Source: Phorcus lineatus
Lineage: Eukaryota; Mollusca; Gastropoda; Trochida; Trochidae
Assembly: GCA_921293015.1 (NCBI GenBank)
Contig: OV121097.1
Coordinates: 28,183,429-28,247,428, forward strand
Reading direction: 5' to 3'
DNA length: 64,000 nt
Made by a program: the position numbers and the translations under genes. Numbering within the stretch: the stretch's first letter is position 1; each line of letters starts with the position of its first letter. Shown in pieces: positions 8,215-62,075 of the stretch. Under the pieces are notes generated by a model, which saw only the letters and a list, made by a program, of their open reading frames with translations, searched no databases and was not told where the DNA came from.

Positions 8215-8450
8215 CACCAAGGTGAAACACTTATGTGTTTTTGCTATCCTGACAATGCACCAAACCCTGACATATTAGATAATCTTGTATGTGTGGTCTT
8301 TCTAGCTAATGTGTTCTTCTCTCCTAGCTGACCTCACTTGGTGAACACTGCAATTCCAACTCTGGAACAATCATATGATTTCTTATCATTGCAATCCAGG
8401 AACTTCATACCTCTCCTGAAAGAGGAAATTTTATGATATATATTTGTGCT
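8215..8450 (+). repeat. Block B, diverged copy 1
   Basis: Shares the order 'tgtgttcttctctcc', 'gacct(c)ac', 'ctggaacaat(c)atatg.tttctta', 'cctctcctg' with the better-preserved copies at 13.0 and 19.3 kb. No coding potential is evident. Confidence 0.5.
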
Positions 8451-8789
8451 GAGACAATTAATAATAACAAGTCACGCATGTGTTTACTGTGCGTCTAACC
8501 CTTCCTTTATGTTAATGCCTCTTGACATGTGTGTTTATGTTAACATTATATCAAACAGGTAGTTGTTTAACGCATAGTTGGTAGAACTACTTTCTTTGTA
8601 TAATATCATAAGCCATAGCTGTATCGATGTGAATTTACATTTAATTATGGATATATCTCTCCTTTACTAGCTAAAAACAAAAGGTTATATACTTGAAATT
8701 GATTATCGTCGATTTGTTAATTTCATGTCTATTTCACAAACTAAATGCACGGTAAAATAGGTTATAAAATCCTTCGTCAACGATTCACG

Positions 8790-9153
8790 TGGTGGCACGT
8801 GCTCCTGTGCGAAGCTCAGTTGACCGATATCAGTAAAATTCAGCGATATCCGGCGTAGATCGCCGGATGGATGGGTTACCCGATCATTGTTCTATTAACT
8901 GAGAGTTCAAGGGTTATTGAACTGAGACGCGAGCTGAGAAACTTGCGGTGTCTCCTTAGGCAAGAGATTTTATTCAAAATGTGCTTCTGTTCACCCTGCA
9001 GTACTAATTTGGTACCGGGTATAGATTGTGTTTGAGGTGACCTTTAACCGGCAGCATGGTTTAGACCAGGGTAATAATGCAGGGAGCGCCTTGAGCATGC
9101 CTTCGGTGTGGATATGTGTGCTATGAAAATATCCTCATTATTATTATCATTAC
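8790..9153 (+). mobile_element. SINE with ATT-rich 3' tail, family 2
   Basis: The body carries words typical of SINEs common in marine invertebrates: 'ttaggcaagagattttatt', 'tgtgcttctgttcaccc', 'gcgccttgagcatgcctt' and 'gatatgtgtgctat'. It ends in a simple 'attattattatcatt' tail at about 9,130-9,150. The tail fixes the plus orientation. The 5' end is uncertain because no clear target duplication is visible. Family assignment is from memory of similar repeats. Confidence 0.75.
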
Positions 9154-9809
9154 ATTGTAAATAAGCTAACATGGAATTATGGACTCATTCATAAAAGTCA
9201 ACTGAAGGCAATAATTCATACCATGGTCTGTAAGACAGAATTTCAACCTTAAACCATTCAATCAGTAATCTCCGTTTGTCTCGGTGCTTGTTAAAATCGA
9301 AAACTTTAATCTCAAATACATTTGTATTTACTTTCCAAAACAGAAAGTACCGATACGCCATTTTTTAAATACTTTTAGTGTGGCTTGCATTCCAGACAAA
9401 TTATTAGAATAAGACGTTCGAATATCAAAAAAGTGTAAATGCAACAATTTTGTCATTTAGCACTTTCAATAACGAAAAATAAACAGTATCAATAGATTTT
9501 GTTGAGGTTGTAAGGGTCAACGACAATCAGAATTTATGCTGCTCTTATCTGATAAATACATTTTCATTGTATTTCATAACAGGAAATTAAGGAATATGAA
9601 AGCTTAACAAACAACATAGGACATAGAAACTGAGGGTGTTTGCTCTCTTAGTTGTAATGACATAAATGCAATGTCGCCATCTTGGCATATTCCCTATGCC
9701 GCAGCGATGTGAAAGTTCTTAATTCTTCAATTATTATTAATTATTTCTTCAAAATCCTACGTCATTGCTTTAGGTTATGTGACATAAGGTCATCGTATGG
9801 AAGTTCATT

Positions 9810-10020
9810 CCATTTCCAGGATGTATGTGTCCCCGCGACATCGTTACGGTGTGACTTTGGCCTTCAGCTATGTTCTGTCAGCCAAAAATTGCCAAGCTGT
9901 CAGCAGAGTCTTCGTGCTAATGAGAGGTGAGATAGTTCGATTGTGTATAGCACACGCCACACAGACATAACCCAAGGCTGTTTTCTGAAAGAATACTTTG
10001 AGTGTCACGCTCTTTGGCCG
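9810..10020 (+). repeat. Block D, diverged copy 1
   Basis: Matches other D copies in order: 'ggtgtgac..tggccttcagctat', then 'cagcacacgccacacagacataac' and 'ggctgttt'. In the right half of the window D follows A. Here it precedes the A copy at 11.4 kb. Confidence 0.55.
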
Positions 10021-10286
10021 CCCAACCATGATGCGAATAGAATTGATGTGAACTGAATTTTTATTTGAAAGTGAAATGTTATGTTATAAGGCCTTATTTC
10101 CAACAACATTTGAAATATCTTTTTCAGAATAGGGATGTATACTTAATATAGTGATGCAATGGTCTCCTCTGTTTAGATTCAACATCAAGGGTTATGCCTA
10201 TTTATCATATTCACTTTCAAGCCACTGTATCATCTTTCTTTGGGAAATATAGTGATCAAACGAAATGGAAACGATGGTTGCCATTG

Positions 10287-10319
10287 AAAGATAATCTTTT
10301 TACTAAGTGAAAGATTATC
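10287..10319. repeat. Short perfect hairpin
   Basis: AGATAATCTTT and AAAGATTATCT are exact reverse complements around a roughly 10-nt loop. No flanking element boundaries were seen. Confidence 0.6.
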
Positions 10320-11444: not shown

Positions 11445-11700
11445 CGTCTTTATTTGGTTTTCATATCAAGCAAAACTAGGCTGTGCAGAAGTCAATCTGT
11501 GTTTGTCACAGCAGACTGGACAGGTCAGTCTTGTCAAAAAAGGAAGACAAGAATGATAGGATTAGTTACACGACACCCGAGACCATTGTCCAGAAATCAT
11601 AGAGTGTCCAGCCATTATAATCATATCGTGCCAGCTTGAGGCTACAAATTGTTATTCACGCTAGGGGACGAGTATAATTTTATCACTTTAGGTATAGATG
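11445..11700 (+). repeat. Block A, copy 1
   Basis: One of six co-oriented copies. Shared landmarks are 'catatcaagcaaaact', 'gtcaatctgtgtttgtcac', 'gagaccattgtccag', 'atcatatcgtgccagct' and 'ttgttattcac'. Open frames through it are not conserved in length between copies, so it is treated as non-coding. Confidence 0.75.
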
Positions 11701-11925: not shown

Positions 11926-11968
<43 letters not shown>

Positions 11969-12002: not shown

Positions 12003-13000
12003 TTAATATTTGTATAGCGTCGATTACCAACTATACGCTGCTCAAATGCGCTTTGTTTTTTCCCTCGGTCATTGAATGTAAGGTTTGCAACTTAAGCAGC
12101 CATTTGACGTACCAAGTTTACACCATGCTCATCCTTACACATTCACGGCTGGGTGAACTTGAACACATGGTCACAGTGTTTTGTCCAAGTTACTAGACGT
12201 TTGCTTTACCTGCAACTAGGTGTATGCAGATCAGTATGGTTAATTTGATTGTTTAAGCACAAAAGTGTTTCTCTTCGAATCAAACGATTAATCAAGAGTA
12301 AATTTAAATATAAGAGTAGGTGGTTAAAAAATCTAAAAGTAATATTATCAATAACCCATTTTACGAACCGAGATTTCCTTTACCCAACCACTTACCTGTC
12401 GTGTATGTTTGATGTGCTGAGCGGAAAAATGACAAAATGATCTTATTGTGCAAGTAAAATCTTACCCTTAAATTACAATCCTCTGCATCTGCTTCAACAA
12501 TTATCTCTACAATATATTTTACGTATTTTCTGACTCATAATATCAGTGAATTTCACAGAAGCGTTCATACACCTCAGGGCAAATTTTCTAAAGGCACTGT
12601 TTCTCACTACAGGAAGTCTTTACAATCTATTTCAGATATTTTTCTCACGAACTATGTTTCATTTTCACAGATGCAAACTTAAACCCATAGGAAAAATATC
12701 TTAATGTACTGTTTCTTGCTCATCCTTAAATCTAACCAGGCGCGAAATGACATTCTGTTCTTATATGTGCTGGTCTTGTTCCTGATGTATTCTTCCTTCT
12801 CATCTTTCACCTCACAGATTAAATGAATTAAACTAAACTATGTGGCGTTTTAAACATCCTGAAATAAGCTCAAGATTTTAAAGAAATATGGAGCTTGGAA
12901 AATTATCCTAGCCTTAATCTGCCATATTTGAGGTACACTTATTTTAAGATCTAGATGTTAATGTTTCTGTCAAAAAATTCTATAAACGAATAATTTAAAT
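12003..13000. other. Unannotated stretch
   Basis: AT-rich, with only short chance frames. No repeat shared with the rest of the window was recognised. Confidence 0.4.
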
Positions 13001-13009
13001 TCGCGAACG

Positions 13010-13360
13010 AAGCAGCATATCAAGGTGAACAAGTATCTAAAGGTACGTGTTTTTCTTCATTCTGTAATGCAACCATTCACATCTTGTAAATGTGTGTCCT
13101 CTTTCTAATAGAGTTCTCTCCCCTTCCTGACCCCACATGCTGCACAGTGCACTCCTAACACTGGTACAATGATATGCTTTCTTAGCTGTGAATTCCAGGC
13201 ACTTTATGTCTCTCCTGGACCAGAAAATGGTGTGAGAGAGGCAAATGTTTCTGTCTGAAGGGCATTGCTGATATGTTAAATGATATTGTCAGTACAAAGA
13301 TCCTTCATTTATGTGTAGTGGTGTTTACATTATATCACAAGGATAGTAACTGTTAAGTTA
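13010..13360 (+). repeat. Block B, copy 2 with identical 84-bp core
   Basis: Contains an 84-bp segment (13,113-13,196) that reads base-for-base the same as 19,380-19,463, while the flanks (for example 'tctcctggaccagaaaatgg' against 'cgcctggaacagataatgg') have diverged. The core includes 'accccacatgctgcacagtg' and 'ctggtacaatgatatgcttt'. Confidence 0.85.
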
Positions 13361-15580
13361 GAATGCTGTTGTAAAATAGAAGATGGTGAAAACTGCGCTA
13401 TTCTTTTCTTTTAAAACGTATATGTTAAATTTTGACTTCTATAAATTCATTGGATTAAATTCGATTGTGAATTGAGCAACCTCGAACAGGGTCACCGCTA
13501 GTGCCGTCAGAACACTATTGTTTGTGACGTCATTGACTATTGTTTTTCACAAAAATATAGGAATATAGAATAGACGGCGCCTTAGATTTATTTATAACAT
13601 TAATGTTTTCTTTTATGAATAATAAAAAAACGTTTGTCATAGTGGTAATTTTTTTTATTATGTATACATTTTGTCGATTTAATCATGCTAAAGATTTTAA
13701 TTCATTTAATTAATTTTGAGTACAATATGTAACCAAATGTTTGTCCAAGATCAGTTATTGATGATAGACACTGTGTGAAATCATTTACGTTAATTTTTTC
13801 GGAAAAAGACGGAGTGCAACTATGTCATTAGGTTGAAAAAAATCACTGACAAACAATTCCAAATATATTCTCAAATGCAAAGCTCGTATTCCATCATTCC
13901 ATGTGTAATGATTAGCAAATTAAGAAATTGGATGCAAGAACTCTTCCCATTTCAAAGTAGTATCATTTCATAAGGTCATAAAAGCCTCCATCTCAGAATG
14001 CAATGATGTTAATAACAAGATATCTTGGAACATTATTCCATTTGTCACCAACATCAAGCTGACACATCGCTGTTGGCTGTTACAATTTTCGATAATGTCA
14101 CGAAACAGGAATACATTTTCACTTTTGTCAGCATGGAATATCCTCTATGACCATCCTTTACGTGTTACTAAAGGCTTCAGCTAATTAGCCTCTACCAAAT
14201 TTAGCCAATTATTCGACCATGTTTTCTTGTTAATAAGGAGATGGATTCCCAGACATAACCTTAGGGGTTTACTGAACCAATGTTGCGGTTGTTAAGATCC
14301 TCGTTCACTAGCTTAAGCTTGGCGCGACAGCACTTCTAGGAACAAGTAATGTGTTCGATGATTATGCCTTTTAAACTATGGTTACCTCCCCACCCGATGG
14401 AAGGACCTTTATTCATTTTGTTTACACAGATGGTTGAAACAAACATATCCAAACTGATTGGCTTCACAGGAAAAAGTAATCAGTTGGATTATTATAAATA
14501 CTATCAGAATCTGGTTTTGGCTCAACTTACTAAGAATATAATTGTTTATGTAGTTACGAGATGAATCCTAAATGTGTATGTACATATTAAAAAGGTTATT
14601 GTCCTTTCTATTTATATATACAACGTTATTCATTAACCTTTTGAACCATTTATTAAGACTTAATCTATATTAAATGAAAGTATTCACTATATCAAAAACG
14701 TTTATACTCTTACGAATCGGATACACCACAATTTTTTACGAAGTACATAGTAGCAAATAATTATGTTTAGTTCCCACACCCTTCTTCCTGTCTGTCGGAT
14801 ATCAATGACTATATCCTTTTGGCTTTTATATCATCACTACCATAACACTAACTTCTGAGATAAAGATAAAATAAATCTAGAATTCCTTGGTCTTCAGTTA
14901 TTTGATCTACAGTTCTGCTTTGGATTAAATATATTATATGGGTTACGTGGGGAGTCACGATAAGCTTACTCCTCTGATAACTGCTATAATCATCGAAACA
15001 TCTACTATCTTTAATACCTTAAATAGCTGAAAAATGCCTCTGAAAGAAATCTGAAAAATGGATGCAAATTTCTACATCAAGCTTATCTATACAGTATGTT
15101 GAAAAGAATACTCGCGATGCCTTGAATATTTTAGAAATGGTGTATGTGGTTACTTGGTTTATTATTGACAGACATAAATCCTTTAAAGCAAGTTAAATCA
15201 TATGCTTCTTCAAAATGCTTTAGTGGTTGATATAACTGAACAAAATTGTTAAGTATTAAGATATACAGTTCCAGAATTACGTTGTGTACACTGATTGTAT
15301 TAAATACGATTTATTGTCATATTTCTACACACCTTTAACGGAACATTGTTTAAGTTTTACACGCACATGGCACAAGTCAGAAAGGAATTTAGATTGTCAT
15401 GAGATAGATCACTTTGATGGTAATGATAAAATGTCTTCTCTTATGGTGTATCCATGGCTTATATGTTCAGTCATAATTATATCAATTATAAATATATCAA
15501 TGACTTTGTTTAATAGGATACGTCAATGAGGAAGAGTTCATTGGACTTTTCAACTTCCTTACTGAATTATAAGGAGCATA
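13360..15580. other. Unannotated stretch
   Basis: AT-rich, including a long T-rich run near 13,645. The open frames at 14,349-14,564 and 15,284-15,529 have no splice or family support. No shared repeat was recognised. Confidence 0.4.
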
Positions 15581-15745
15581 TTTGACTGAACGAACTGTTT
15601 ATTTATGGTTTCATCATTCTTACGGAGACAGGGGGAAATTATTCTTTTCTGAGGTGCAATCCTAGTCTATCATTCTTTGCAAACAAACAGTGCAATGACA
15701 TGCTTTAGATAGTGTAGTGAAGAGAAACAACGTAAACTAAAGTAC

Positions 15746-15799
15746 CTTCTAAAAGTTCCAGGTGTAACAATTCTTTGCGATGAGAATTATATTTTCAGG
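15746..15799 (-). pseudogene. 54-nt exon-like piece, copy 1 (internal stop)
   Basis: On the minus strand an acceptor 'aagttaatttcag' precedes 54 nt, followed by a donor-like GTACTT. The frame reads PENIILIAKNCYTWNF, a stop (TAG), then K. The duplicate at 20,821-20,874 has GAG where this copy has TAG and has a better donor (GTATGT). Equal length, conserved splice positions and the shared YTWNF argue for a once-coding micro-exon that is now disabled here. No family recognised. Confidence 0.45.
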
Positions 15800-16356
15800 C
15801 TGAAATTAACTTGATTGCAATAAGAGGTAGTAGGATGTTGCTGTAAACTGTATGACAAGAAAGACAAATAGCATAGGAAAGAAAAACATAATAAGAGTAA
15901 TAGTAGTCGTGTGTATACCAGTAAGTTTGAATCGTAATTTCAAAAAACTACTTACATATTTCATGTAAAGTGATGGAATTCAAGGTCAATGATTCTTTTT
16001 TAAGTTCCTTAAACATGTTTATAATTTGAAGAATATTTCAAATTTTGAGATCAAATGTCCCAAAAAGACTCTAATGTTGAACTTGTTTTTAGAAATCTTA
16101 ATATTGGATGGCTTCAAAACGATGTTAATGGAATCTAAAAACACTGTTGCTTTTTTACATTATGCATGTCATCATTAACATATGTCAAGGTCAAGGTTTA
16201 ACACTAATTTTCATGCTTCACAATGTGACAAATATACAGTTGTTTTTAAGCAGAATATTACCCTTTTAATAAATTCATCTACAATGATAACATGACAATT
16301 TGTTGCTGCATTTATAGTATTTGAAAAAAATGGTTTGCAGAATATTTGTTGCATCG

Positions 16357-16826
16357 CGTAAGAAATTCCATTTTCTCTCAACAGAGGTAGCTCCGTCATA
16401 AATGTCTATACAACGTTCGTCTTAATACGAAGGTTTCTCGGGCACGAAATGTAGAACGATGATTGGATGCAATCAAAGTTAGTTGTGCAATCAGCAACGT
16501 TGTTTCAAAATTTATCATTCAAATCGCCTAAGGTTTTTCCGTACGCTTTCCAAAAGCTAAACTTTATTCCAATATGCGCTTGCACTTTGAGTCGTCTTTA
16601 TAGAACACATACGCTTATTTTGCGTCTGCATCATTGCATAGGCTTCTGTGACAACAAGAATGTTATTCATGCATTCGGTTTTTTCATTGGCTGACGTAAT
16701 GTTAGGTTGCTAAGTTGCAATATTGCGCCGGTAGGGGAACTGCCTGAAGCCCGAGAACCCTTGGTATTAAGACAGAAGTTGTATAGGAATTTATGACGGA
16801 GCTACCTCTGTTGGGGGAGAATGGAG
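16357..16826. repeat. Inverted duplication around a minus-strand exon end
   Basis: The left arm (about 16,357-16,445) is the imperfect reverse complement of the right arm (about 16,737-16,826). Both contain 'caacagaggtagctccgtca', 'ctatacaac', 'gtcttaatac' and 'ttctcggg'. About 290 bp separate the arms. The right arm covers the 3' end and donor of the candidate exon at 16,806-16,934, so the left arm is a reversed copy of an exon/donor junction. The structure could also be a fold-back transposon, but no target duplication was seen. Confidence 0.8.
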
Positions 16827-16934
16827 AAATCCATGTTCATGAAGGTTAATAAAGTGACACCAGATGTAACATATTGCAGCATAAAAGTGTTTGTCCAACC
16901 TTCTTTATGGCATATTTCAATAGAATCACCTTGA
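16806..16934 (-). CDS. Exon-like open segment within duplication G copy 1
   Basis: On the minus strand, an acceptor 'tttacaggaacag' is followed by 129 open nt to the donor-like CAGAG|GTAGCT. The frame reads QGDSIEICHKEGWTNTFM, then further residues including 'TSGVTLLTFMNMDFSILPQQ'. The composition looks protein-like. No counterpart was found in duplication copy 2, and I do not recognise a domain. The acceptor region is itself tandemly duplicated just upstream. It may be an exon of the same minus-strand gene or pseudogene as 18,037-18,118. Confidence 0.33.
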
Positions 16935-17022
16935 CTGTTCCTGTAAATACTGCTAAAAAGTAAGGCATATTTCAATATAATCACCTAGTCTGTTGCTGTA
17001 AACACTGCTCATCAGTACAGTG
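16908..17022. repeat. Short tandem duplication (about 58 bp x 2)
   Basis: 'ggcatatttcaata.aatcacct' is repeated with about 58-bp spacing (16,908 and 16,966), together with 'ctgt..ctgtaaa.actgct'. The duplicated part includes the acceptor of the candidate exon at 16,806-16,934, giving two possible acceptors. Confidence 0.75.
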
Positions 17023-17190
17023 TATTGACTTTCCTTTCTATTTAGATAGATGGAAAAATAGATGTATGGAAAAAAGACATTTGAAAGAGGCTGTCTAACT
17101 CAGTGGAAGGAGATTTGTGGAAGTATTATTCAGAACATGTTCATATTACACAGTCTACAACATAAATATCCTTGTGTCACGAGGACATAC

Positions 17191-17287
17191 TTATTGTCCA
17201 GACGATTCTCTTTCGAATGATGTATTGGTACCATGATATATTGTAACGATGCTCTGTTACGAACCATCGTTACTGAATAGTTCATAA
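17191..17287 (-). pseudogene. Middle exon-like piece, copy 1 (acceptor lost)
   Basis: Aligns with 21,787-21,882. A donor-like GTATGT is conserved at the same place, but the acceptor that reads 'ctttcag' in copy 2 reads 'cttccg' here. One frame is open throughout (NYSVTMVRNRASLQYIMVP, then further). In copy 2 that frame has a TAG. A second frame shares 'IVTIYHG' but carries a stop in both copies. Confidence 0.35.
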
Positions 17288-18036
17288 CGGAAGACAGTTA
17301 TAGTGATGATGTGTGATACATATATGAAGTATATATATATGACAAATACGTATATCGTGTGAGTGTAGTTTAAAGAAAAGACATTATACGTATGTCTGGT
17401 AACTAGAATAGTTAAATAAGCTTACAGTAAAAAGGATAAACATTAAAATACATTGAAATACAACACTTAACATATCAGTTTAAAAACAATAGCATCAATA
17501 ATCTAAAAGGGTGGAGTACGGTTTCAGAAACGTTGTTTAGAAAATGATGGTTTTTATGTTAAACATTTTCATGTTACAACGATAGCTGAATATTTACCAA
17601 AAACAATAAGAACTAGTACTACTATTGCCTAAACATGTGTTGAATTTCTTTCAGGGCTTTTCTGTTTCAGTACCTCAGTATATCGGGACTACCATGTTGA
17701 ATAGATTTAAGTGGGTTTTGTATCTAAAATTTACATAAAAACATAACAACACGGATTGCGTAATGGATTGCATGGTTTAACAAAAAGCAGCAAAGGTGAT
17801 ATATAACCAAAGAATTTGAAGAAAACGAACTTTGTGTTTTGAGCTTCGTCTGGAGAGTCATAGTTCTTCTAGATTAAAAGAGGAAATAGTATATCTAGGG
17901 TGGCACTGTTCTGACTATATTCCTTCCAGTAAACAAACAAAACACAACGTATGTTTGAATAGTAAGTAGATGAGAATTAAAGTGTCCAATTTGCATACCT
18001 TGAGAGGAAAAAAGTTCCATGGGTGCCTTCACTTAC

Positions 18037-18118
18037 CAGACAGAAAGAACAGAATACTGATAGATATTACAGGTAGGAGGATGTTTATGTTGTACAAAAC
18101 AAACGAGAAGGAAAGCAT
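18037..18118 (-). CDS. Signal-peptide-like first exon, copy 1
   Basis: On the minus strand an ATG at 18,118 opens an 82-nt frame ending at a consensus donor, TCTG|GTAAGTG. The peptide begins MLSFSFVLYNINILL and continues with VISISILFFLS, so it is almost wholly hydrophobic, as expected of a secretory signal or membrane anchor. 'aaggggagatta' lies just upstream of the ATG on the same strand. The duplicate at 22,608-22,697 also has an ATG, a hydrophobic frame and the same donor, but its length differs by 8 nt, so the phase at the junction is not conserved. At least one copy is likely non-functional. Confidence 0.4.
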
Positions 18119-18831
18119 TTCCTAAGAGTGAGAGTAATCTCCCCTTCTATTCTATAAGTTAAGAATTGCTGCTGTACAGTGATCAATCATCAAATGTCCC
18201 GTGAGAAAGACCCAATTCGTAATGGATCCAATAGAGAGCAAATTTTCAACACACAGTAATAGTTAGTCCAACAATGCATGATGATGAAATATATAAATCT
18301 AATTGTGCTTAGATACGGATCCAGATGTTTATGCAGTTCTCCCGCGGGATCGACTCAATGATTGTTTGAAATATTCAAGAATGAAACTACCTTATTCATC
18401 ATGATGTTTATAGTGAAGAAAAAGATCTCACAAAAACGAAAGATGAGCTTTTGGGACGAGCTTTCTTTTGGGCGACATACGGGGCAAAGAGTGTGGATAC
18501 TTTCACAGAAATAAAATTCAATACTGACATATTTTTAGAAAACAAACTCTAAAGGTCGCCGTGTTTAACTATAATGATAAAGATACCATTAATGACTGTC
18601 TACGTACAAAATTATGTTTTTACTCTTTCCCATTGTCTGAGTGAGTGTCCCTTTGGCAATTCTTCAGCAGTAAGTGGTGTAAATTCGTTTGTCTAAATAA
18701 AAGAAATGAAACAATAAGGCAACCCAATTTATCAATTCACTGAGGTTTTCTATTCGTGGAAGTGGTCTTGATAAAAAAATAGTGTATACTCATAGTAATT
18801 CATCTATAAACATATTGATATATAGAGAATC

Positions 18832-19130: not shown

Positions 19131-19254
19131 TATGCAACCAATAAAGTTCCTAAAATAAACTCAATATTTTACAGAACAAGGGACAAGAAAATTACCCAAG
19201 CTGTTATATGAAATAAATAAAGGTACTTATCTAAATATGTAGTTAACGTTTCTG

Positions 19255-51000: not shown

Positions 51001-51537
51001 TAGCCATGCTTTGTGACATTGTGAGATAATGTCCCTACAACAAAGGTCGCCGTGCTTTGTGACTTACACATTTCAAAAGAGGTAGCCGTGCTTTGTGACA
51101 TTTTGAGATAATGTCATTACATAGGAGGTAGCCATGCTTTGTGACATTGTAAGATAATGTCACTACCAAGAGGTAGCCATGCTTTGTGACATTGTGAGAT
51201 AATGTCCCTACAACAGAGGTCGCCGTGCTTTGTGACTTACACATTTCACAAGAGGAAGCCGTGCTTTGTGACATTTTGAGATAATGTCATTACATAGGAG
51301 GTAGGCATGCTTTGTGACATTGTAAGATAATGTCACTACCAAGTGGTAGCCATGCTTTGTGACATTGTGAGATAATGTCACTACCAAGAGGTAGCCATGC
51401 TTTGTGACATTGTGAGATAGTATCCCTACAACAGAGGTCGCCGTGCTTTGTGACTTTGACAGATAATGTCATTACAAAGAGGAAGTCGTGCTTTGTGATA
51501 TTGTGAGATAATGTCACTGCACAAGATGTAGCCGTTC
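48012..51537. repeat. 45/46-bp minisatellite with 173-bp and about 1,183-bp higher-order units
   Basis: The 45-bp monomer runs GTGACATTGTGAGATAATGT, then CACTACCAAGAGGTAGCC, then ATGCTTT. Variants are 46 bp ('gtccctacaacagaggtcgc'; 'ttttgagataatgtcattac'), and a 36-bp short form has 'gacttacacatttca'. One of each (46+45+46+36) makes a 173-bp unit, seen back to back at 49,852-50,370. A 1,183-bp super-unit repeats as 49,188-50,370 and 50,371-51,553. An earlier partial copy starts near 48,352, offset by 836 bp. The left edge (48,012-48,230) and right edge (51,420-51,537) hold the most diverged monomers. Many overlapping minus-strand frames of 67-112 codons result from the repeat and are not genes. 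Confidence 0.97.
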
Positions 51538-51700
51538 CAGGATACCACACTGTTATAAGTAGGGAACAAATAATATGTCTCAGGGTCATCGTCAAGGATT
51601 GCATGGGGCTTCAGCCATTTCTTTCTGTTCAATGAAACCAATTTGTTTACAACGTCTGGGTTCCAATTAGATAGCTTAATGCGTGTTCAGGACACGACAC
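51538..51700 (+). repeat. Block D, copy 4, directly after the minisatellite
   Basis: 'gtagggaacaaat', 'ggcttcagccatttctttct', 'ttccaattagatagcttaat' and 'gtgttcaggacacgacac' match D copies at 34.1, 43.0 and 61.8 kb. This marks the array as an expansion at the D edge. Confidence 0.8.
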
Positions 51701-52373
51701 AAATAATCAAACAAACGAAACAGTTGAATATCCTCGCTTCTTTATATCAAAACGTGGGATGTGTTCCCCTGATAGGTCTTTGTAAGGATTGAGTTATCCA
51801 AAATGAAATTAAAAGTCAGTAATGCAAACCAATATTTCGATGTATGCAACAAATGCACTATTAATGAATATCTCTTGAAATTACAAACTCAGGTAATCTA
51901 CCTCGTGAGTTATTTAACTAATATGCAGTTACTCAGATTGCAAATTGGATTTGCATTAAATCTGCGCATGCATGGACTACGATATCAGAAATATTCAAAT
52001 TTTGCCTACAGCCAGAAGGGCAAAAACGGCAGCCGCTGTCTTGATCCAATAACAATGCTAATGCTACATTTTAAAAGTCGGTTAAGTTTTTAAAAATGCT
52101 CAAATAAACAATATACAGCCTTTGTTCTCAGTTCAGAGTTTAGGTAAATTCAAAAGCTGCACACAGTACTAGTAAAGCCGTTTTCAACTTTCCATTTCCA
52201 CAGCTGACCATAGATTTGCATCGGTAGAAAGTTTAAGCAAGTGACTGTATCCTCATATGCCTTAAACTGGCCAATTTGAACCGAAAACGTGTGCTACAGA
52301 GACTGCTGTTTTCCACACAACTTCATATAATGATAAAGAGTGAATAAATAACAAGCTCTGTTAAACAAATTTA

Positions 52374-52596: not shown

Positions 52597-54504
52597 GTTG
52601 CAAAATATAAGATGGTTGAAGCTTTTCTGTGTCTTTACTGCATGGTATGTCGAATTTAATTCTTACAGTTTATCTTTCAACATAAATATATGTAAGTGAA
52701 TAAATATGAATTGCTTCTAATTGAAATAAATCCTCGTCTGTCAGTTTATTAGATAATATGATTTTACCGAAGCAGCAATTATACAAACTTAAAAGGGATA
52801 GATGAACTTATCTTGTAAGAACATGAAAACTAGGTGAAAGTTTAAAGGAGCAGGAGTACGCTTTTCTGAAATATTTAATTCTTCAAAATTATAAGTATAT
52901 AAGTTTACATAAGTTTATGACAACTGTATTATCTCCAAAAAACATCTGATTAATCAACCTGGTCATCCGTAGTCGTAGAGGAAATAATAAAATCAAGGAA
53001 AATCAATGGCGGACATTTTGATGTGAACACCTTTAATTTTTATAGGGAAATGGATTTGCATTTCTTGACCAATGATGCTACTTTCGTTTTATAACAAAAA
53101 CATTGCCTTGCAAATTGAAACATTTATTTTCGTTAACTTTTTTTTCTAAAACGTGTTACTGCTCAAATAAACTGCTTGATCAAGTTAATAATTATTTCAA
53201 TATAGACGAGATGTTCATGTGGAGCCACCTAGTGTGTATAAACTTTGTTATCTCCCCTTGCATCAGGTTATTAGGTTGTGAAATATTGATAAAAAAATGT
53301 TTTCAAACATCGTATTTGGGTTGATAAAATCAAAGGAAATGCATTGTTGAACAGGTGAATGTCCATGTACAAATATACAAACAAGAAGAAAAGAAGAGCT
53401 ATTCGGTCTGAGTATTCTTCCCTTGTGTAGAAAGATTTGCAATTAGTCCACTGAATATAGAATTACTAAACATTACATCATTTTTACTAAATCTACAAAC
53501 TTTGTATTTTTGTTTATAACTAATACATGTAGAGCTTTATTGACAAACAATGTTATCTCGAAGAAAAGTTTCTCTCTTGATAAATTCCAGGAATCTACCA
53601 TTATATTGATGTAACAAGAGACCATGCCCAAAAATGATTATTAGTAGCTTTTTTACCTCTGTGACACGTGCCTGTGCACAAGGAGCAAGATCACGTGATG
53701 TTCAGCCTTTCTAAAAACGAAAATTGATAATGAAAAATAATAATCTCCAATAATGATTACACAAGACTAGTCGACTAGACTTTTATTCTTTGAATGTAGG
53801 ATTTCATGTCTACATTCATGTTATCACTGTTTTGTCATTCAATTGAAGAAAGTCTGTTTATCTTCAGTGTACATGTTTATATTTGTTACATTTATGAAAA
53901 TCACACAACAGATAATATGGGAAATTTACTCTCAGTCATTATAAATTCAATGAATTTCAGGATATGTAACCATCGCATGAAGGATAATGCATTTTCGCTT
54001 TCTGCCATTGCCTTTTTAGCAATACTAATGCCACAAAAAAATGCATCAATTTGTATAATTAACCTGCCAGCTTAAGCTGGAATTGCGAGAAAGCAGAATA
54101 AACAATGGTTTTAATGTGTTGGAATGTCATTCACATATATCATCACACTTAAGTAACCCTTAGCGTCACTTAAAACAAATATATATGTTGTCTTCCACAG
54201 TGGTGTAATATATAATTGTAAGTTATAGCGAAGAAATCCAAAAGAGAAAAAAGAGGCAGTGTGATGTTTCACACGTTAAAAATGATAACGAATAGAGTGG
54301 ATTAACAAGTCACATGTTCACTCAGCTTGTACTGTCATGGTTTCAAACATTAATTAAAGTAATTGCCATATATATAATATGTATAGATAAAAAAATATAA
54401 TTCAGGCTCAAACACGCGGCTGTTTCGGTATTTTACATTCAGGTTATTCTGATGCAATGAAAACATATTTGTAAATCCAGGATGACAGTTAAGTACATTC
54501 TTGT

Positions 54505-54690
54505 TATCAAGATTATCTCGTTAGTGCGTTCGGCTTCTGATCATGATGTTCATTCCAGCTGATCGCGCAGGTTTCACCGCAATGCAAAGCCGATTGGCGT
54601 TGTGGACTTTCTCCCTGCAATAATACCGGCTGCCGCGATATAAGTGAAATACTCTTCAAAGCCACGGTAAACCCTCCTTACCTCACTTCT
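54505..54690 (+). mobile_element. SINE family 1, copy 5
   Basis: Plus orientation: 'ctcgttagtgcgttcggctt', 'gcgcaggtttcaccgcaatg', 'tctccctgcaataataccgg' and 'ctgccgcgatataagtgaaa'. It ends with 'ccttacctcacttc'. The head is partly tRNA-like but lacks a good B box. Confidence 0.88.
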
Positions 54691-57420
54691 AGATGATCTC
54701 ATTGCATTTATACAACACATCAATATATACTTTCAAGAGTACTTTCAAATGGTCCAAATCATATCCAAATTATGGTTCTTTGAAAATGTCTGAACCTGTT
54801 ATTCTAAATAACCAATATGGCGATCCAATGTATATGCTAAAGGCTTCCATCACTACATGAAAGTGTCTACCGTCGTACATCAGAGAACCATCTGATATGT
54901 GTCGGTACTAAACACTATCAGCAACACTAGCTGCTGCACTGCTAACAGATTTATGGTTTGTTTGTTTACAAACAGTTGGTATATTAGCGATATTCACATC
55001 ATCTGTAGTGTTTGTGTGTGTCAACCTGTTGAGTTACTGCATTGATGATGTTTGTTGTTTTAAGGTTAAGCCAGTGTGTGTTTACAAACAGTTGGCTCAC
55101 AAACCGTAGCAATCGCTTTATTTCTGTCTGATGACTTTCTGTCTAGGTTACATTTCACACTAAATCAGTGCTTGCTGAACTTCCTGTCACGAGTTCAGTC
55201 AAGTGTGCACTTAAGGTGTTGGTGCAATGATATAACTCGGTGGTGTACAATCTATACAGTTGCATGCCAAAAGTTTTTTCACATACTACAGTACACTAGT
55301 GAAAATATCATGTAATTTGAGATGCCTTTGAGGTATCGTAGCGTTGCGAAAAAGAAACGTATAATATTGAATTTTCAATACACATATACTGATCCATTCT
55401 TCTTTAAGGCAAATGTTCATCGTGCCCCACAATTACCCGTAACAGTTTTTGCAGGTCATTGAAGTGACCAGGGGTCAAATTTCCGAAAACACTAATTTTT
55501 ATTTTCTCAATAAAATCCTTTTTAAGTTATAATCTTTTTTAACAATAAGTCACCTTCGTTCCTTAGCACAAAGTCAATGTGATTATTTTGGTTTAAATCT
55601 CAGAGAGTCGATATGGAATATTTTATTTGACATTTAACGAAACTGAAATTTCGAAAATGTGACCCCATCTGTCTATATCGATATGCCAAAATTCGAATTT
55701 TCGCACGAGAGAACAGATGATCCAAAAATTCGTTCAAGAGTGGCTATTTCACACATGGACAGTGGGTGATCATTTGTCAGTTTTGAAACGAAACCCAAAT
55801 TACATGATACTGTATTTGCACTACGATTCAGTAGTAAGTGAACAAACTTTCGGTATGCAGCTGTAAATTGATGATTCAGCTGACCTTTGACCAATCGTAG
55901 GGGCAGATGAACAGCGAGTCATGCATAGGGAGTTTGAAGGAAACTATTTGCATGAAATAATATATGAAAAAATATTTGTCATCATTTCATCTCATCTTTG
56001 ACTTTGAAGTGTTTCGGATTTTATTAGATCATTGTTAAGATAAGAGGTAAAGTTATTGAATAGCATGCGATTGTTTTTAAATTATCTTTTGATGCCGTTG
56101 ATCGTAAATTTACTTAGTTTGTCTATTATGTAATTTGAGCACTGCAATACACTTATATCACAACGTTCACTTATTTCAGGTTTTAAATGACATTCTGGAT
56201 TCTATTTGGTGTAAGGTGTAATATCAACAACGAAAGCTGTAAACAAAGTGTGAACTCACAAATTCAAAATATGTTAAAAGTCCGAAATCGGTCACTGAAT
56301 TATCTATCTTTACAAAACGACGGCCATTTTTGATAATTGGGAATTGATCATAATTATTTTTGCTGTAAGTCAAGAAACCATTGAAAATTAAAATATAACA
56401 TGAAATAATAATAATGTGAACCAATATGTTGCAAATCTCTATCGCAATATAGTGCGTTACGGAAATGAGATCGATATCCATCCTTAAAGCTTATTTATCA
56501 TTTATATCGTTACATAGTTTTATATCCATCTTTTACTCAAAACATGTGGAGATCTTGAAAGAGTGTGATTTACAATAACCTTTGAAATGGAAGATGTCAC
56601 TGCAAGACATCAACTACAAGACTTACGGTTGTTTTAATCACCAATAATTAATGAATATGATACATTTGCAATTCCCACTACCATCTCTTCAAAGTCATAT
56701 CGTGATACCAATACATGTGGCCTTCAACTTGCCATCAACTAAGGCTTTCGTTTTGTAATGGCTGTAACGTCACATGGTTTTATCGTGTTGAAGCATTAAT
56801 ATCTATCAATAATTAACCACATCAACCTTCATATATAACAATAGTACAATCTATTAATTTCTTCAAACTTTGTCATCATAATATTTTTATCTTGAAACAT
56901 TGCTGTGTTTCCATAAGTCTTTAGAACAAAATCTGAAACCTCAAATTGACGTTCAATCATTTGTAAAATACATCATTTGTTCATCCTCCCACAACTTGAA
57001 CCTGTACATGTTTTTTCTCTGCATAAAGGACATGTGTCCCCACTGATATTGCGTTTCATGCAAAACGGCAACTTTTAATTGTTATTACTTTAGATTAACC
57101 CATTCTGAATAATTCAATCTCTTAAAATTTAAAACCTATATTTTGGGATGAACAATAAATGACATTTCTCATACGTTCCTACTTATTAATGTTTATAATC
57201 GTTTGTGTTTATGCATCATGGCCTAGTGAGCATTATGGAAACTTTGGAAACATTATGAAAACATTTATGTGAAAATGAATTGCAATAAAACAGATCCACT
57301 ATATGTAAACTAAGAGAAGAGTAAAATAGGTTGTCAGTTTTAAGAGCACTAAATTATATATTGAGTGCCGACAAGCAATGTATTTTTTGGATACATGTGT
57401 TGTCAGTGTGTATAGAAGGA
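54691..57420. other. Unannotated stretch
   Basis: Frames at 55,076-55,315, 55,673-55,894 and 56,224-56,481 have no domain or splice support. No element was recognised. Confidence 0.4.
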
Positions 57421-57429
57421 AACGATGGT

Positions 57430-58400
57430 CATGAATCTCTCCATGTAGTTTTATTTGACTTCGTTGTAGACTTAAACATTAAAACAGTATGAGGTGTCTG
57501 GACTTCGCGTTGTCGGTGTTTGTGTAGGAAACCATGCATGTAGCATGTGGAAATGCGTGTAGAGGTTTTATTCTTTATAGAGCTAAGATGTCACAGTGAC
57601 CAGCATTTATTGCATCTTCAGTAGTTAACCGACAAGAGGGTTGTCGTTAACAAGTTGGACTTCACCTGATTTTATCGACTTTATAACTTCAGACTTAATC
57701 ATTGTCAAAACACAACCTGAACTCATCAATCTAAAGCAATAAAAGTAGAAGGAGTGTCTTGAATGGTCCCATCAAAGTATAGTTTTCCATCCGGCAATGA
57801 CTTTCACAGTAGCGTTCACACCAGCACAATAGGAGAAATGAATGTTGATGGTTTACATCGATGAAGGTACATTTTGTCGCATTAGGAATATTTATCAATT
57901 TCTAAAAAATGGCCCGCACTTCAAAGGACAAGATATTTTAAACTCCTTTTAAACCTTAGATATTGCTGTCACAGGAATGATAAAATTCAGTATTTAAAAC
58001 CCAAAACAAATCTTCGAGGTCATATTGTACACGTTATTGAATATGTTCTTTCTTTACACAACTCAGCACTCAAGAAACCCAATGTCCCAAACGCACATAA
58101 CTTGACTGCACAATTGTTTTACCATCTGTTTTACAGATTGTTTGCTTATTACTACATCATCAACGAATAATGGTTTCCTGATTTTACACTAGGTTTTGAT
58201 GAGTCAAGACCCTTAAGAGACCGACGTGTTCCCTTGCCTCTCCTGAACTGCAACACTGTATGACACATCAGTAACATACAGAATGTGTTCACTCTTAACA
58301 ACCAAACTCCTTTTTTTACCTCAAACGATGCACGCTGTCATCCTATCTTTAGAACAGTCACATGCTTTCTTGGCACTTTGTTGAAGTCTTAGAACTGAAT
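57430..58400 (+). repeat. Blocks E and B, copy 7
   Basis: E (57,430-57,640) matches 44.6 kb ('catttattgcatcttcagta'). B (57,990-58,400) matches 27.5 and 36.2 kb ('accatctgttttacagatt', 'catcatcaacgaataatgg', 'acatgctttcttggcac'). Confidence 0.75.
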
Positions 58401-58429
58401 AGAAGTGAGGAAGTTTTGTTTATTAAGTT

Positions 58430-58620
58430 GATAAAATCAGGTTAGGATGATGCCATAAGTACATATATTGGTTGAACTTGTTCAGATATGTGCAACTATT
58501 TAGTGTAATGATCTCTTGCACGTATAAGGACATAACAATCTCATCAGGAGCCTGTCAGGTCACTTTGCTTTAAAGAGTCATATATGCCAAAGTTAATCAA
58601 TGGTGTCATTTGATCGCGAA
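58430..58620 (+). repeat. Dispersed repeat R with further copies at 59.0 and 59.8 kb
   Basis: 'atgtgcaactatttagtgta' plus 'atgatctctt' (58,490-58,515) recurs at 59,099-59,130. 'agagtcatatatgcc' followed by 'gtatcgactgttacc' recurs in diverged form at 59,815-59,880. The 58,510-58,575 part matches 29,035-29,090. Confidence 0.65.
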
Positions 58621-58671
58621 GTATCGACTGTTACCAAAAAGACACATTTTAAAGCTTATTGATTTTTACAG

Positions 58672-58792
58672 TGGCAATATGAAGGCAGAAAGTCGCAATT
58701 ATGATCGAAAACCGGACAGTGGCGCGCGTCAAATATTCAAAAGTAATTTTGGAGACCTATCTAAAACAGCCAGGAGGGCAGTTAGGAGTTGA
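58672..58792 (+). CDS. Possible terminal exon, basic peptide, unknown product
   Basis: The acceptor 'cttattgatttttacag' precedes an open frame to a TGA at 58,790-58,792. The peptide reads GNMKAESRNYDRKPDSGARQ, then 'IFKSNFGDLSKTARRAVRS': basic, with a composition unlike chance AT-rich frames and with CG-containing codons. It follows repeat R, whose copy at 29.05 kb also precedes an acceptor-like site. AATAAA signals occur downstream (about 59,030 and 59,440). Family unknown; it may be part of a mobile-element protein. Confidence 0.3.
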
Positions 58793-60159
58793 AAGTGTTT
58801 GTTAGGTTATATAACTAGTATCCATGTATAATTGACGTGGTATCTACAACCAGGGCATCTATAAGGCTGTTTTTATATTTTCATGGAAAACCACTATTTG
58901 TCATATATATGTCTTTTGGACATTTAAAATCAAGATGTTTTGATTTTATATCACCACATATGACATAAAGGTTCGCATCAAAGGTTAATAATATCTTATG
59001 AAAATCACGGAGTGGCTCTGTAAGTTGATAATAAATACAGATATTGGTTGATGTTCATTCGTGATGTTGAAAATTTTTTTAATAAGAACTTGTTAAAATA
59101 TGTGAAACTATTTAGTGTAATGATCTCTTCATCTACATCTTTAGCTATTTTTATAACATACCTTTACGTTGAATGCTATTGTCATTTAGGAAATATGGAA
59201 AGATTCTGAAACTATACCTTGCTATAAAAATATCAAAGGTAAATCCCAAATATGATGTAATATTTTGAATGAAAGAATTTCATTATGTAAGCTTTGAAGA
59301 CAAATATTTTAAAATATGAAATTGTAATCTGTTATAATTTAAAATTTTGGAGGAATGAGAGACATGTGATGAAATGATTTCTGCTGTTTATGTAAGATAA
59401 ATCCTTCTTCACTGTGATATGTATTTTTCTTGAAGGAAAATAAAGTCATTGAAATTAACTAAAAGCATTGTTATAGAACGTTCTGTAATATTTCTAGCGC
59501 AGTTGAATTCAGTTTTCAGTATTATCAGTTTAAGCGATTTTCACAATAACCAAACTGGGGTCAAAATGATTCAATATTATGTTAATTAAGAATGCAGCTG
59601 AGTGCTTAACGAAAAGTTAACGAGTAAGATATAGTAGATTTCAGCTACCGAAAGCAAGAATGATATAATTTAAGAACAATATCTAAAAAGGATGTAAAGG
59701 AATGAATTGATGAAACATAAGGTGAGCAATATATCAGTCATAAATGCATTAATTATTTAGCCTAGAACTACAAACTAAAAGCAAGGGTAAACTGCTAAAG
59801 AGACATTTGATTGAGTCACATATACCAACTTTTATCATTGGTTTTGTTCTATCAAGGAAATACTGACTGTTTCCGATAAGTATCAATTAAATGCTTATAA
59901 ACTAGTGTTCATGTTATTTCGGCTACAGCACACACATAAAGATGCTGTTCAAGATTCATTAATAATAATAATTGTCATGTATTTGACAGGTTTGGATAGA
60001 TATTTGAGCTGTTTTGAATACATAACACCATAATTGGTGTTCCAACACAAATAGCAAAATAAAGTACATAGAAAAACGGGGAAATCTCCGATTTTCTGTT
60101 CAAGACAAAATATACAACCAGGGCTCATTCAAAACAATTAGTCCCTCGTGTTTTTGTTT

Positions 60160-60420
60160 CAGGTGCCGCTGGTGGTCGCCATGAAGTTGAAGTCCCATCA
60201 GGACAGAATCAGCTCCAATGTCTGACTGACTGAAAGTTCCATGTCAAGTGTTGGACTGGGATAGAAAAACACAGGTGTCTGTGATCGTATTTCTGTAACA
60301 CTCAAAGGAAAACATGTCAACTCAATTAGCGATTTCATGGTATCTGGACCGGATCACCAGGCTAATTACAAATTACACGGATCATTGGTCTCTTAGACGG
60401 CTTGTTGACGTTCATTTGAT
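60160..60420 (+). repeat. Block C, copy 4
   Basis: Near-identical over about 115 bp to 46.14-46.25 kb, and shares 'agctccaatgtctgactgac' upstream. 'tttttgtttcag' precedes it, as a similar site does at 46.04 kb. Confidence 0.9.
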
Positions 60421-60924
60421 GGGAGAAAGCTGTAGTGGTGTAAAGAAGATAATGTTATTGGTTTGATGGGAAAGTAGAAAGGAAGCAACGAATGTAGATG
60501 AGATGAGTTTTCTTCTTCACAAAACGCTAAAACAGAACAATATCATTAAGTGATGGTTCTTGCGATTGTGTAAAATGTCATTGTCATTACTTTAACAATG
60601 AAAATAATAAAATGTGCAGTGATTACTGATAATTTGACTCGAAGGCAAGTGCTTGTTTCTGATAACTAGACAGCTGGCTGAACATAGAAACTACAATGTC
60701 ATTTTCATGTATATCTAACACACACGAAAAAACAGACACTATATGAAACATAAACAATATAAAGTATACAATATATAAAATTTTATTAATAAAAAATTAC
60801 TTAAATCTAAATATTGAATATAATGTTTCGCTTTGATCTAGTATAACTTAATTTGTTTGACAAATGAAGGTTCTAAAGCCTTAAAGCGTCACCACATGGC
60901 CACCTTGTATTAACAAATACGCAT
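60421..60924. other. Unannotated spacer between C and A
   Basis: AT-rich; nothing recognised. Confidence 0.4.
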
Positions 60925-61200
60925 TTATTTGGTTGGTTTGGATATGCCTTTCATGCCACACAAAACCATACGGTGCAGATTTGTGTCAAACCTGTCAATT
61001 TAGCTTTGAATGGTCAGTCTGGTCAAAGCAGCAACACCAAGTTGACAATATTTGACATGAAAGATTGATTATTGTCACCAAGCAACCCTGTGGCCATTGT
61101 GCAGAGATTATAAGCTAGTGCAGCCATAATGTACCAGCTGGACTGAATATTGTAATTCATAGTAGGGCACTATCTTGATATGTCCTTTCACTGTTTAATG
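60925..61200 (+). repeat. Block A, copy 6
   Basis: Close partner of 46,845-47,110 ('caaaaccatacggtgcagat', 'tgacaatatttgacatgaaa', 'aatgtaccagctggactgaa'). Confidence 0.85.
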
Positions 61201-61785
61201 TCATTTAAGAAAATTTGAAGTAGAATATTATTCAAATGAGGGAGATTTAAGACAGGTTAATTTATATACAACGCCTTTATTCTATAAGTGTGGTATCAAT
61301 ATATTGTAGACTGAAATTTAGTCTATGAAAAATTTTCATAATTTACCATAATATTTTTTCTTAGCCCTTCTAATTTCATATCTAGATTTGCTGACTGATA
61401 TGTGGACCTAGACTGTATTAAAGGCTCCTCTTTATACACAGTCGTGAAGCAGGACTAGATATATTGTTTAATAGCAGGTTAGAATTTTCTATCTATGACA
61501 ACGTTTCATTTTCCTTTATAAATTAATATTTGGTAACATGTATTTTCAAATTTCATTTCTTATCTGACTGTGCTGAAATTCCCTTTTATTTGATATGCAT
61601 CACCCTTACATATCGCAATAAATGAATGTTAAACAAAAGATCACTTCATAGGTATGCTTGCAAGTTTTCTTATATTTACCTGATAAAGATTGATATAATA
61701 TGAAAATATGTACATGGATTAGTCATCTTTACATGTATATGAACGAATATCTCATTGTGGTCCTATTAGGAACAAATCCATGCGC

Positions 61786-62075
61786 GTCGTTGACATTATC
61801 AGAGAATGTCTTTAAGCAAGAGAAAGTAATATAGAAATAGTCAATCATTGTGAGGGGGTCACTTTGCTTAGGTGTGCCTCCGTCCTCAGCTATTTCTCTG
61901 TCCATTGTGATCAAACCTTGTCTTGTTCCAATTAAATAGCTGAATTAATGTACAGGTCATGACACACGTACATACCCCCGGGCTGTTTACAAACGAATCA
62001 GTTGGGCCTTACGCCCCACTCTGATATAACTTGGACGTGTGCCCCTCACTTCAATGTTTTGTCAGGGTATTGAGT
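61786..62075 (+). repeat. Block D, copy 5, with a single minisatellite-like unit
   Basis: Starts with 'gttgacattatcagagaatg' plus 'tctttaagcaagag', the single-unit relative of the 48-kb monomer. Then come 'cctcagctatttctctgtcc', 'ttccaattaaatagctgaat', 'catgacacacgtacataccc' and 'gggctgtttacaaac'. Confidence 0.8.

Follow-up and report, generated by a model that had tools for sequence, protein, structure and literature searches.

The 64,000-nt stretch of Phorcus lineatus DNA analysed here (contig OV121097.1, positions 28,183,429 to 28,247,428; hereafter the window, with coordinates counted from its first nucleotide) lies within a region of approximately 120-200 kb that has no recognisable genes and is composed of many copies, mostly in the same direction, of ordered sets of noncoding blocks. 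The best explanation is an ancient tandem array, restricted to a single locus, of noncoding functional modules that are most likely cis-regulatory, a reading that, judged from sequence, has about an even chance of being correct.

Extent and organisation of the array

An earlier note on the window described an array of ordered, co-oriented duplicated blocks. Self-comparison and profile searches show that this array is real and larger than described: it is present in the range first given (8215-62075), but those limits are too narrow, as ordered copies span about -47 to +71 kb, with extra groups at -95 to -85 and 80-106 kb. The block order C-A-D, which had been reported at four places, was recovered on the + strand by both methods at 32-34, 40-43, 46-52 and 60-62 kb. 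Colinear, same-orientation pairs in the self-comparison include 46012-46324/60137-60460 (81% identity) and 46822-47080/60911-61164 (78%), as well as 32024/60184, 33124/41479 and 34156/43061. Profiles placed C at 32030, 40539, 46024 and 60149, A at 11452, 20145, 33130, 41482, 46835 and 60928, and D at 320, 9856, 14170 (weak), 29390, 34146, 43056, 51600 and 61875, all on the + strand. By profile search, the window and its surroundings contain about seven units, and some five more lie to the left. Units are approximately 5-14 kb in size, with some 3-10 recognisable blocks of 0.1-0.5 kb and spacers mostly of 0.2-2 kb. Identity between copies is about 66-90% and limited to patches, and there is no homogenised unit.

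With tandem repeats masked, and palindromes and direct pairs of less than 500 bp excluded, the window has 32 same-orientation pairs within 20 kb versus 5 inverted pairs, while the one 60-kb stretch that served as formal control (C39: 10.0 Mb) has 3 of each. The 16 profile hits in the control belong to families 0, 2, 10, 11, 21, 45, 48, 74 and 75, none of which is a family of the ordered array. An informal second control, 110-164 kb of the same region, carries short doublets and dispersed families and no ordered units.

The order test and the motif count followed manual removal of the families judged to be dispersed; in the former, 42 of 42 tokens in the window were on the + strand. Family 3, which was among those removed, occurs twice on the minus strand of the window (26660-26917 and 30982-31294), and minus-strand copies were also found for families 33 and 47. 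Recurring neighbour pairs exceeded permutation in the window (p=0.005) and over 7-71 kb (p=0.0002), and likewise in the left and right arrays (p=0.0002 each; third array, p=0.13). A looser order-consistency statistic gave p=0.35 for the window and p=0.38 for 7-71 kb, and was significant for the left array only, the right and third arrays failing. The D block is common to the left and right arrays by profile search, and block 56 (plus the possibly dispersed 22) also recurs in both; the two arrays do not form one detectable family throughout. Cross-family profile hits at E 0.01-0.05 numbered four, versus two on the opposite-strand control. Taken as a whole, the array structure is well supported.

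Blocks of the left and right arrays

All blocks described in this section are on the + strand. The left array is represented in the window by the D of its last unit (family 31; 320-415, nhmmer 5e-18, D core with one mismatch), followed at 1333-3924 by left-array blocks 39 (1333-1406), 40 (1823-2306), 32 (2512-3015) and 41 (3700-3924). These four are colinear with a segment beyond the window, -8483 to -5279, the identity of block 32 being 85%. Unit 1 of the right array opens with block 56 (7315-7493, nhmmer 2e-36) and continues with block 42/50 (8102-8563, 5e-110), D (9856-10013, 3e-36, D core without mismatch) and A (11452-11662, 3e-54). Unit 2 has block 42 (12851-13354, 71% identical to 19142-19607), a weak D (14170-14272, nhmmer 6e-5 only) and, at 15599-18148, blocks 44 (15599-15899), 46 (17141-17321) and 47 (17816-18148). 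The last three are colinear with 20687-22729 of unit 3, where the same blocks occupy 20687-20976, 21738-21917 and 22388-22729 (self-comparison, profile and genome search), after block 42 (19142-19607; self-comparison and profile) and A (20145-20336, nhmmer 3e-40).

Unit 4 carries two copies of D. Block 56 (26253-26390, 1e-27) is followed at 27680-28585 by blocks 50 (27680-27962) and 51 (28320-28585), which are 70-71% identical to 36315-36608 and 38015-38286, and then by D (29390-29543, 1e-27, D core with two mismatches), C (32030-32223), A (33130-33384) and the second D (34146-34301), the last three by profile. In unit 5, blocks 50 (36315-36608) and 51 (38015-38286), recovered over 36315-38286 by self-comparison, profile and genome search, precede block 54/56 (39548-39684), C (40539-40812), A (41482-41735) and, at 42694-43217, small blocks 55/54/55 and D (43056-43217, D core without mismatch), with C, A and this last group found by profile. 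The segment 39509-39688 is 90% identical to 42783-42959.

Unit 6 has blocks 56 (44606-44812; 44627-44847 is 72% identical to 57429-57644) and 50 (45271-45393; self-comparison and profile), followed by C (46024-46293), for which the genome search gave four places, all in the window, and A (46835-47079; profile and genome search). Between A and the D of this unit (51600-51701, profile) is a satellite array with periods of 91, 173 and 309 (48011-51533, no strand assigned), which looks like an insertion rather than a conserved block. The tail of the unit, at 53169-55099, consists of blocks 58 (53169-53288), 62 (53949-54363) and 59 (54899-55099), and the order 58-62-59 repeats after the D of unit 7, at 63026, 64991/68480 and 70585. 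Unit 7 comprises, at 57412-58400, blocks 56 (57412-57609) and 50/42 (58062-58400), both by profile, then C (60149-60432) and A (60928-61163), which correspond to the 81% and 78% pairs given above, D (61875-62014, nhmmer 2e-28) and, in its tail, block 58 (63026-63145, 72.5% identical to 53169-53288).

Genomic distribution of the blocks

In DNA searches of the genome, which miss strongly diverged copies, blocks C, A, 54, D, 30, 40, 32, 46, 47, 50 and 51 were found only at the array locus, all on the + strand. Matches to 17130-18150 (blocks 46 and 47) were confined to this locus, and the same was true of blocks 50 and 51 and of the unit 5 blocks at 42694-43217. The D core, at up to two mismatches, has 10 matches in the genome, and all four with at most one mismatch are at the array locus. 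Two long queries were swamped by dispersed elements and are uninformative on C, A and D; in every other block search, genome-wide dispersal, which the earlier note had named as the observation that would speak against its proposal, did not appear. Dispersed elements do occur inside the range, at 32679-32855 and 58575-59024, and are not members of the array. A dispersed transposon family was rejected, the searched blocks having no copies at many loci or in both orientations. With blocks that are ordered, co-oriented and, for those searched, confined to one locus, and that have recurring neighbours, the array fits tandem segmental duplication rather than transposons, as had been proposed, and is probably old.

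Coding potential

The earlier proposal that the array is a gene cluster with mostly decayed exons was not supported. The Pfam search covered 487 of the 520 frames selected in a 264-kb region; the other 33, namely 24 of the 261 window frames and 9 of the 259 flank frames, were satellite or simple repeat. Selected frames had at least 52 aa in the window and 66 aa in the flanks, were not of low complexity and did not cross 10-kb locus borders. Among these 487 open frames there was a single match at E<0.001, a Transposase_1 remnant (0.00025) in a flank; the best match in the window, among 142 proteins, had a value of 0.0023. Shared open frames did not exceed the longest of 40 column shuffles in any of 16 families tested (equalling it in three), in a test that dropped rows with more than 40% gaps and so used fewer copies than exist in 5 of the 16. 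The most conserved parts of the blocks have no coding signature by six-frame open frames, codon-phase counts (for the rows shown), substitution scores or shared frames. The array has no recognisable coding sequence.

These data bear on the possibility that small protein genes, fast-evolving or decayed, are clustered here in tandem; the blocks would then be promoters, UTRs or pieces of introns, and the coding exons would be too short or diverged for detection. Such exons may be present: the coding score is weak for short exons, simulated coding windows of 75 nt having a median z of 2.5-3.7 and noncoding ones a median of 1.0-1.3 with a maximum of 3.3; the highest z observed in the array was 3.3. 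Weak Pfam matches are also about twice the expectation (30 versus approximately 12 at E<=0.05 in the window; 10 versus approximately 5 at E<=0.02 in the flanks), each in a different family, and tandem gene families commonly make arrays of this kind. Against this stand the absence of Pfam matches below E 0.001 in the 487 frames, Transposase_1 excepted, the lack of a coding signature in the most conserved parts, and the prediction that blocks and spacers of a dead cluster decay equally, which the better-matching unit pairs contradict. The small-protein interpretation is considered improbable.

Divergence of blocks and spacers

Block identity is as high as 80-87% in the better-matching unit pairs, the spacers of which are near saturation. 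Of 46 comparisons of spacers between paired blocks (overlapping, and so not independent), 34 gave z<5 against shuffles. One example, with spacers of 497 and 450 bp flanked by blocks at 81% and 78%, gave z=0.3. Some similarity (z>=5) is retained in 12 of the 46, including one (z 29.6) that contains another block. When uniform rates were simulated, with HSPs at 68-78%, 78-100% of a 6-kb unit was aligned in 20 of 20 runs; the segment from -46.8 to -40.8 kb is aligned with its copy over only about 40% (summed by hand), with HSPs of up to 87%. At a uniform rate most of a unit should have stayed alignable; the spacers are instead near saturation, and the blocks are not simply decaying. At the highest simulated uniform rate (HSPs of about 68%), patchy coverage of 18-46% also arises, so that the argument is valid for the better-matching unit pairs and not for the oldest, and the rate contrast, itself one among paralogues, was found in the former only.

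The cause of this contrast would be purifying selection on the blocks, to which turnover by insertion and deletion could add. A competing account is that the tandem segmental duplication is old but neutral and lies in a gene desert, indels and local conversion having erased alignability outside the blocks. It fits the frequent length differences between paired spacers, the remnants of mobile elements between blocks and the patches that uniform evolution yields for the most diverged pairs. A same-position test within blocks alone, which was weak (21 of 29 contrasts positive, 1 of 29 with p<0.05), also agrees with it. Spacers of nearly equal length between blocks of 78-81% identity are unalignable, which speaks against it, as does the uniform-rate simulation at 68-78% identity. 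With the flanks included, moreover, the 15-column bins favoured by disjoint copy pairs coincided in 27 of 29 contrasts (p<0.05 in 7 of 29), conservation of block over flank being common to these pairs. Neutral duplication is considered very unlikely.

RNA and splice signals

The blocks might instead be exons of + strand transcripts from a tandem family of multi-exon noncoding RNA genes, with the spacers as introns. Block sizes and spacing are exon-like, the blocks are co-oriented, the would-be introns are near saturation, and there is a slight G-over-C skew (0.04 in blocks versus 0.004 in spacers). Splice signals do not agree: none of 12 families, the edges of which are known to about 15 columns, has both an invariant AG at its left edge and an invariant GT at its right edge, nor the complement, although family 67 has the former and families 28 and 32 have the latter. 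No Rfam family and no tRNA was found in the window. Folding of the alignments gave no supporting covariation in A, where the covariation term was penalising, or in D, which formed no pairs, and the scattered low alifold z values among 16 families (as low as -5.1 in a small number of windows) fall on energies of only -2.6 to -7.7 kcal. Overall, the noncoding RNA explanation is on the unlikely side, and the blocks are more likely to be cis-regulatory than spliced RNA exons.

Relationship to known systems

Tandem gene arrays consist of head-to-tail units, arise by stepwise duplication and keep conserved segments in a fixed order. The Phorcus array shares these features and differs in that its conserved segments have no coding signature. 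Satellite and macrosatellite arrays are also repeated head to tail, but the present copies show patchy identity of about 66-90%, near-unalignable spacers and no homogenised unit. Genomic regulatory blocks, or clusters of highly conserved noncoding elements at developmental genes (PMC2688929), resemble the array in having conserved noncoding blocks, fast-evolving spacers and a gene-poor stretch; they differ in that the array blocks are paralogous, ordered in tandem and known here within one genome. Duplicated conserved noncoding elements (PMC1896008) are comparable as paralogous noncoding elements that outlast their surroundings. Those accompany duplicated genes, whereas no gene was found with the array copies, which form about a dozen units at a single site. 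Among the literature matches listed, none describes such an array in its title or the start of its abstract.

If selection on the blocks were confirmed across species, the array would exemplify the tandem multiplication of regulatory or RNA modules with no detectable protein gene, and its internal replicates would make it possible to follow what becomes of paralogous noncoding modules. The array is also a caution that a tandem array poor in genes is not necessarily a dead gene cluster.

A possible regulatory array

Under the preferred cis-regulatory reading, head-to-tail duplication of a unit of about 5-14 kb would have occurred many times, presumably through unequal exchange, after which the spacers would have diverged close to saturation while purifying selection held the blocks, for the most part with their order and direction unchanged. 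The blocks would then be cis-regulatory modules forming a repeated enhancer or insulator landscape, with a putative target gene outside the 284 kb examined. The fuller form of this proposal, that a cis-regulatory landscape has grown like a gene family to a dozen or so units across 120-200 kb at one molluscan locus, with its modules selected and the rest saturated, is advanced tentatively, at somewhat below even confidence.

Some of the 24 motif patterns counted have a higher density in blocks than in spacers (e.g. GTCTG 2.1-fold and CAGCTG 2.4-fold), values that are inflated by homologous copies. The nearest listed homeobox matches on C39 are at 27.636 and 27.653 Mb, approximately 410 kb past the left end examined, a proximity that is unremarkable given the 13 listed homeobox matches on this 44-Mb contig (among 150 scored of 354 candidates).

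Order and orientation of the block copies

An earlier note had described blocks C, A and D as recurring in that order, in one orientation, at 32–34, 40.5–43, 46–51.6 and 60–62 kb, and this order is borne out by self-comparison, which gives colinear same-orientation pairs at those places (window start, position 1; negative values lie to its left). With tandem repeats masked, and palindromes and direct pairs less than 500 bp apart left out, the window (28183429–28247428 of contig C39) holds 32 same-orientation against 5 inverted pairs not more than 20 kb apart, compared with 3 against 3 in a single control of 60 kb, taken at 10.0 Mb on the same chromosome. Iterative profile searches across 264 kb (the window and 100 kb to either side) recovered C four times, A six times and D ten times, always on the plus strand. 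Near -88 kb, families 33 and 47 each have a single copy on the minus strand.

Order was tested after families judged to be dispersed, family 3 among them, had been removed by hand. Recurring neighbour pairs numbered 27 in the right array (window and just beyond; permutation mean 13.2, p = 0.0002), 33 in the left array (mean 4.1, p = 0.0002) and 25 in the window (mean 16.1, p = 0.005), while the 11 of a third array were not above permutation (mean 7.9, p = 0.13). Of the same four, the left array alone was significant by a looser statistic of order consistency.

Anatomy of the arrays

Units of the right array start at about 7.3, 12.9, 19.1, 26.3, 36.3, 44.6 and 57.4 kb, and their usual order, by block family, is 56 - 50/42 - (51) - C - A - D - 58 - 62 - 59. 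Block content varies between units, and some blocks are absent from some of them: C is absent from units 1 to 3, units 2 and 3 carry blocks 44-46-47, and additional copies of D or 56 occur in units 4 and 5. The left array (-47 to +4 kb) comprises about five units, three of which carry D, with the order 19'-18'-26-27-23'-28-29-37-38-30-33-D-39-40-32-41, with gaps; a prime denotes a family on the minus strand by the chosen labelling, consistent in every left-array copy. At -64 to -55 kb, blocks 18, 19, 22 and 23 are reversed relative to the copies between -47 and -34 kb, and so there seems to have been an inversion within the left end. A third group at 80–106 kb is less ordered, a small further group lies at -95 to -85 kb, and 110–164 kb has short doublets and dispersed families only. 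Copies extend past -100 kb, as family 4 is found near -109 kb (inverted) and family 18 near -117 kb.

Several dispersed elements lie among the blocks. Two fall within the range first proposed for the array: a palindromic short element (32679–32855), found genome-wide in both directions (40 of 820 candidate places scored), and an element within unit 7 (58575–59024) with at least 39 other copies at 91–92% identity. Family 2, a short dispersed repeat, occurs in both directions (3969–4262, 22913–23032, 37665–37818, 40121–40333 and 54553–54689), with 17 copies in the 264-kb region and two in the control stretch. Family 3 has minus-strand copies at 26660–26917 and 30982–31294, and its other copies make up the -95 to -85 kb group; it may be either an array block that has moved or a mobile element. 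A 3.5-kb satellite (48011–51533; periods 91, 173 and 309), with a short inverted repeat in its units and a GC content of up to about 0.41, separates A from D in unit 6. Part of dispersed family 7 forms a short tandem array at about -106.3 to -105.1 kb, in steps of about 160 bp that are 95% alike.

Confinement to one locus

Whole-genome DNA searches (957.8 Mb, 74 contigs) found plus-strand matches at this locus only for 45250–47100 (blocks 50, C, A; 7 matches), 42690–43230 (54, 55, D), 17130–18150 (46, 47) and 27680–28590 (50, 51), each of these three with 3 matches, and a left-array query (30, 40, 32; 6 matches), although such searches are insensitive to diverged copies, the D-bearing query having recovered one other D of ten. 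A query with C alone matched four places in the genome, all inside the window. With 40 of 68 candidates scored, the third-array query gave at least 44 matches. Ten are at this locus, and all of the other 34, which lie elsewhere, match a single short dispersed part of the query. A degenerate D-core pattern, allowing two mismatches, had 10 matches in the genome against 1 for a reversed control pattern; all four with at most one mismatch are in the array on the plus strand, and of the six with two mismatches, two are likewise in the array on that strand and four elsewhere.

Divergence of blocks and spacers

In the better-matching unit pairs, spacers have diverged far more than blocks. Spacers were aligned for 46 consecutive-block pairs across the 264-kb region (not independent, as they overlap), each set against ten shuffles; z was below 5 in 34 cases, with flanking blocks 66–89% identical. 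The clearest case is unit 6 versus unit 7, where the spacers, 497 and 450 bp long, align at z = 0.3 between blocks of 81% and 78% identity. Neutral duplication, which we rank fourth and consider unlikely, can be set beside a simulation in which duplicates diverged at a uniform rate. Under the four slowest rates (20 of 20 runs; HSP identity 68–78%), 78–100% of the length stayed alignable, which makes patchiness informative where blocks reach 78–87%; at the highest rate (5 runs) HSPs were still about 68% identical but coverage fell to 18–46%, so that patchiness says little about the oldest pairs. The segment at -46.8 to -40.8 kb aligns with its copy over about 40% (summed HSPs), with blocks at 69–87%.

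With flanks included, disjoint copy pairs agree on the 15-column bins that they favour in 27 of 29 contrasts (7 at p < 0.05). The signal is weak when only the blocks are considered, with 21 of 29 contrasts positive and one significant, and so the blocks appear to have been retained as wholes more than at fixed positions inside.

Coding potential

The earlier note had also suggested a gene cluster with mostly decayed exons. No coding sequence is visible in frames, Pfam, codon scores or shared frames, and in the better-matching pairs the blocks are not simply decaying. Stop-to-stop frames in the window reach 128 codons at most. When 237 of the 261 frames selected in the window and 250 of the 259 selected in the flanks were scanned against Pfam, the only match at E < 0.001 was a Transposase_1 remnant, which lies in a flank. 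A cluster of small or decayed protein genes, ranked third, is improbable. Weaker Pfam matches came to about twice chance expectation, with 30 at E ≤ 0.05 among window frames and 10 at E ≤ 0.02 among flank frames, no two of them to the same family. Codon-substitution scores reached z = 3.3 at most (27 families, 14–108 windows per family); in simulation this score separates coding from noncoding only partially for single short windows. Frame-breaking gaps are general among aligned copies, and no codon-phase pattern was seen among the rows listed. In all 16 families examined, the longest open frame shared by the copies used was no longer than the longest from 40 shuffles, and in three (32, 43 and 4) the two were equal.

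A 95-codon open frame at 62230–62514, rich in acidic residues, resembles an integrase-type element protein; Pfam gave it no support below E 0.001.

Possible function

The edge, covariation, Rfam and motif results determine how the readings are ranked. A noncoding RNA gene array comes second and is rather unlikely: invariant AG and GT at both edges occur in none of 12 families on either strand, A and D have no covariation support, and Rfam has no match in the window. A putative cis-regulatory array is placed first, at about even odds as judged from sequence. Some of 24 motif patterns tested are enriched in blocks relative to spacers, such as GTCTG (2.1-fold), CAGCTG (2.4-fold) and a Sox-type pattern (1.45-fold), and others are not; such counts are raised by homology among the copies. 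As to a target gene, the homeobox matches closest to the array among those listed lie about 410 kb past the left edge of the region examined and are unremarkable. Conserved noncoding element clusters, duplicated elements and tandem gene arrays are all known; among the open-licence papers listed, titles and abstract openings yielded no ordered tandem array of noncoding modules lacking a detectable gene.

Other loci in the genome

The haemocyanin beta-sandwich domain (PF14830) has 16 matches on contig C12 in two groups of eight, a pattern suggesting that the genome is that of a mollusc, perhaps a gastropod, with two haemocyanin genes of eight units each. On contig C11 (13.42–13.53 Mb), at least 18 homeodomain matches are identical in score and many are spaced about 2.8 kb from one another, which suggests a tandem array of recent origin whose unit carries a homeobox.
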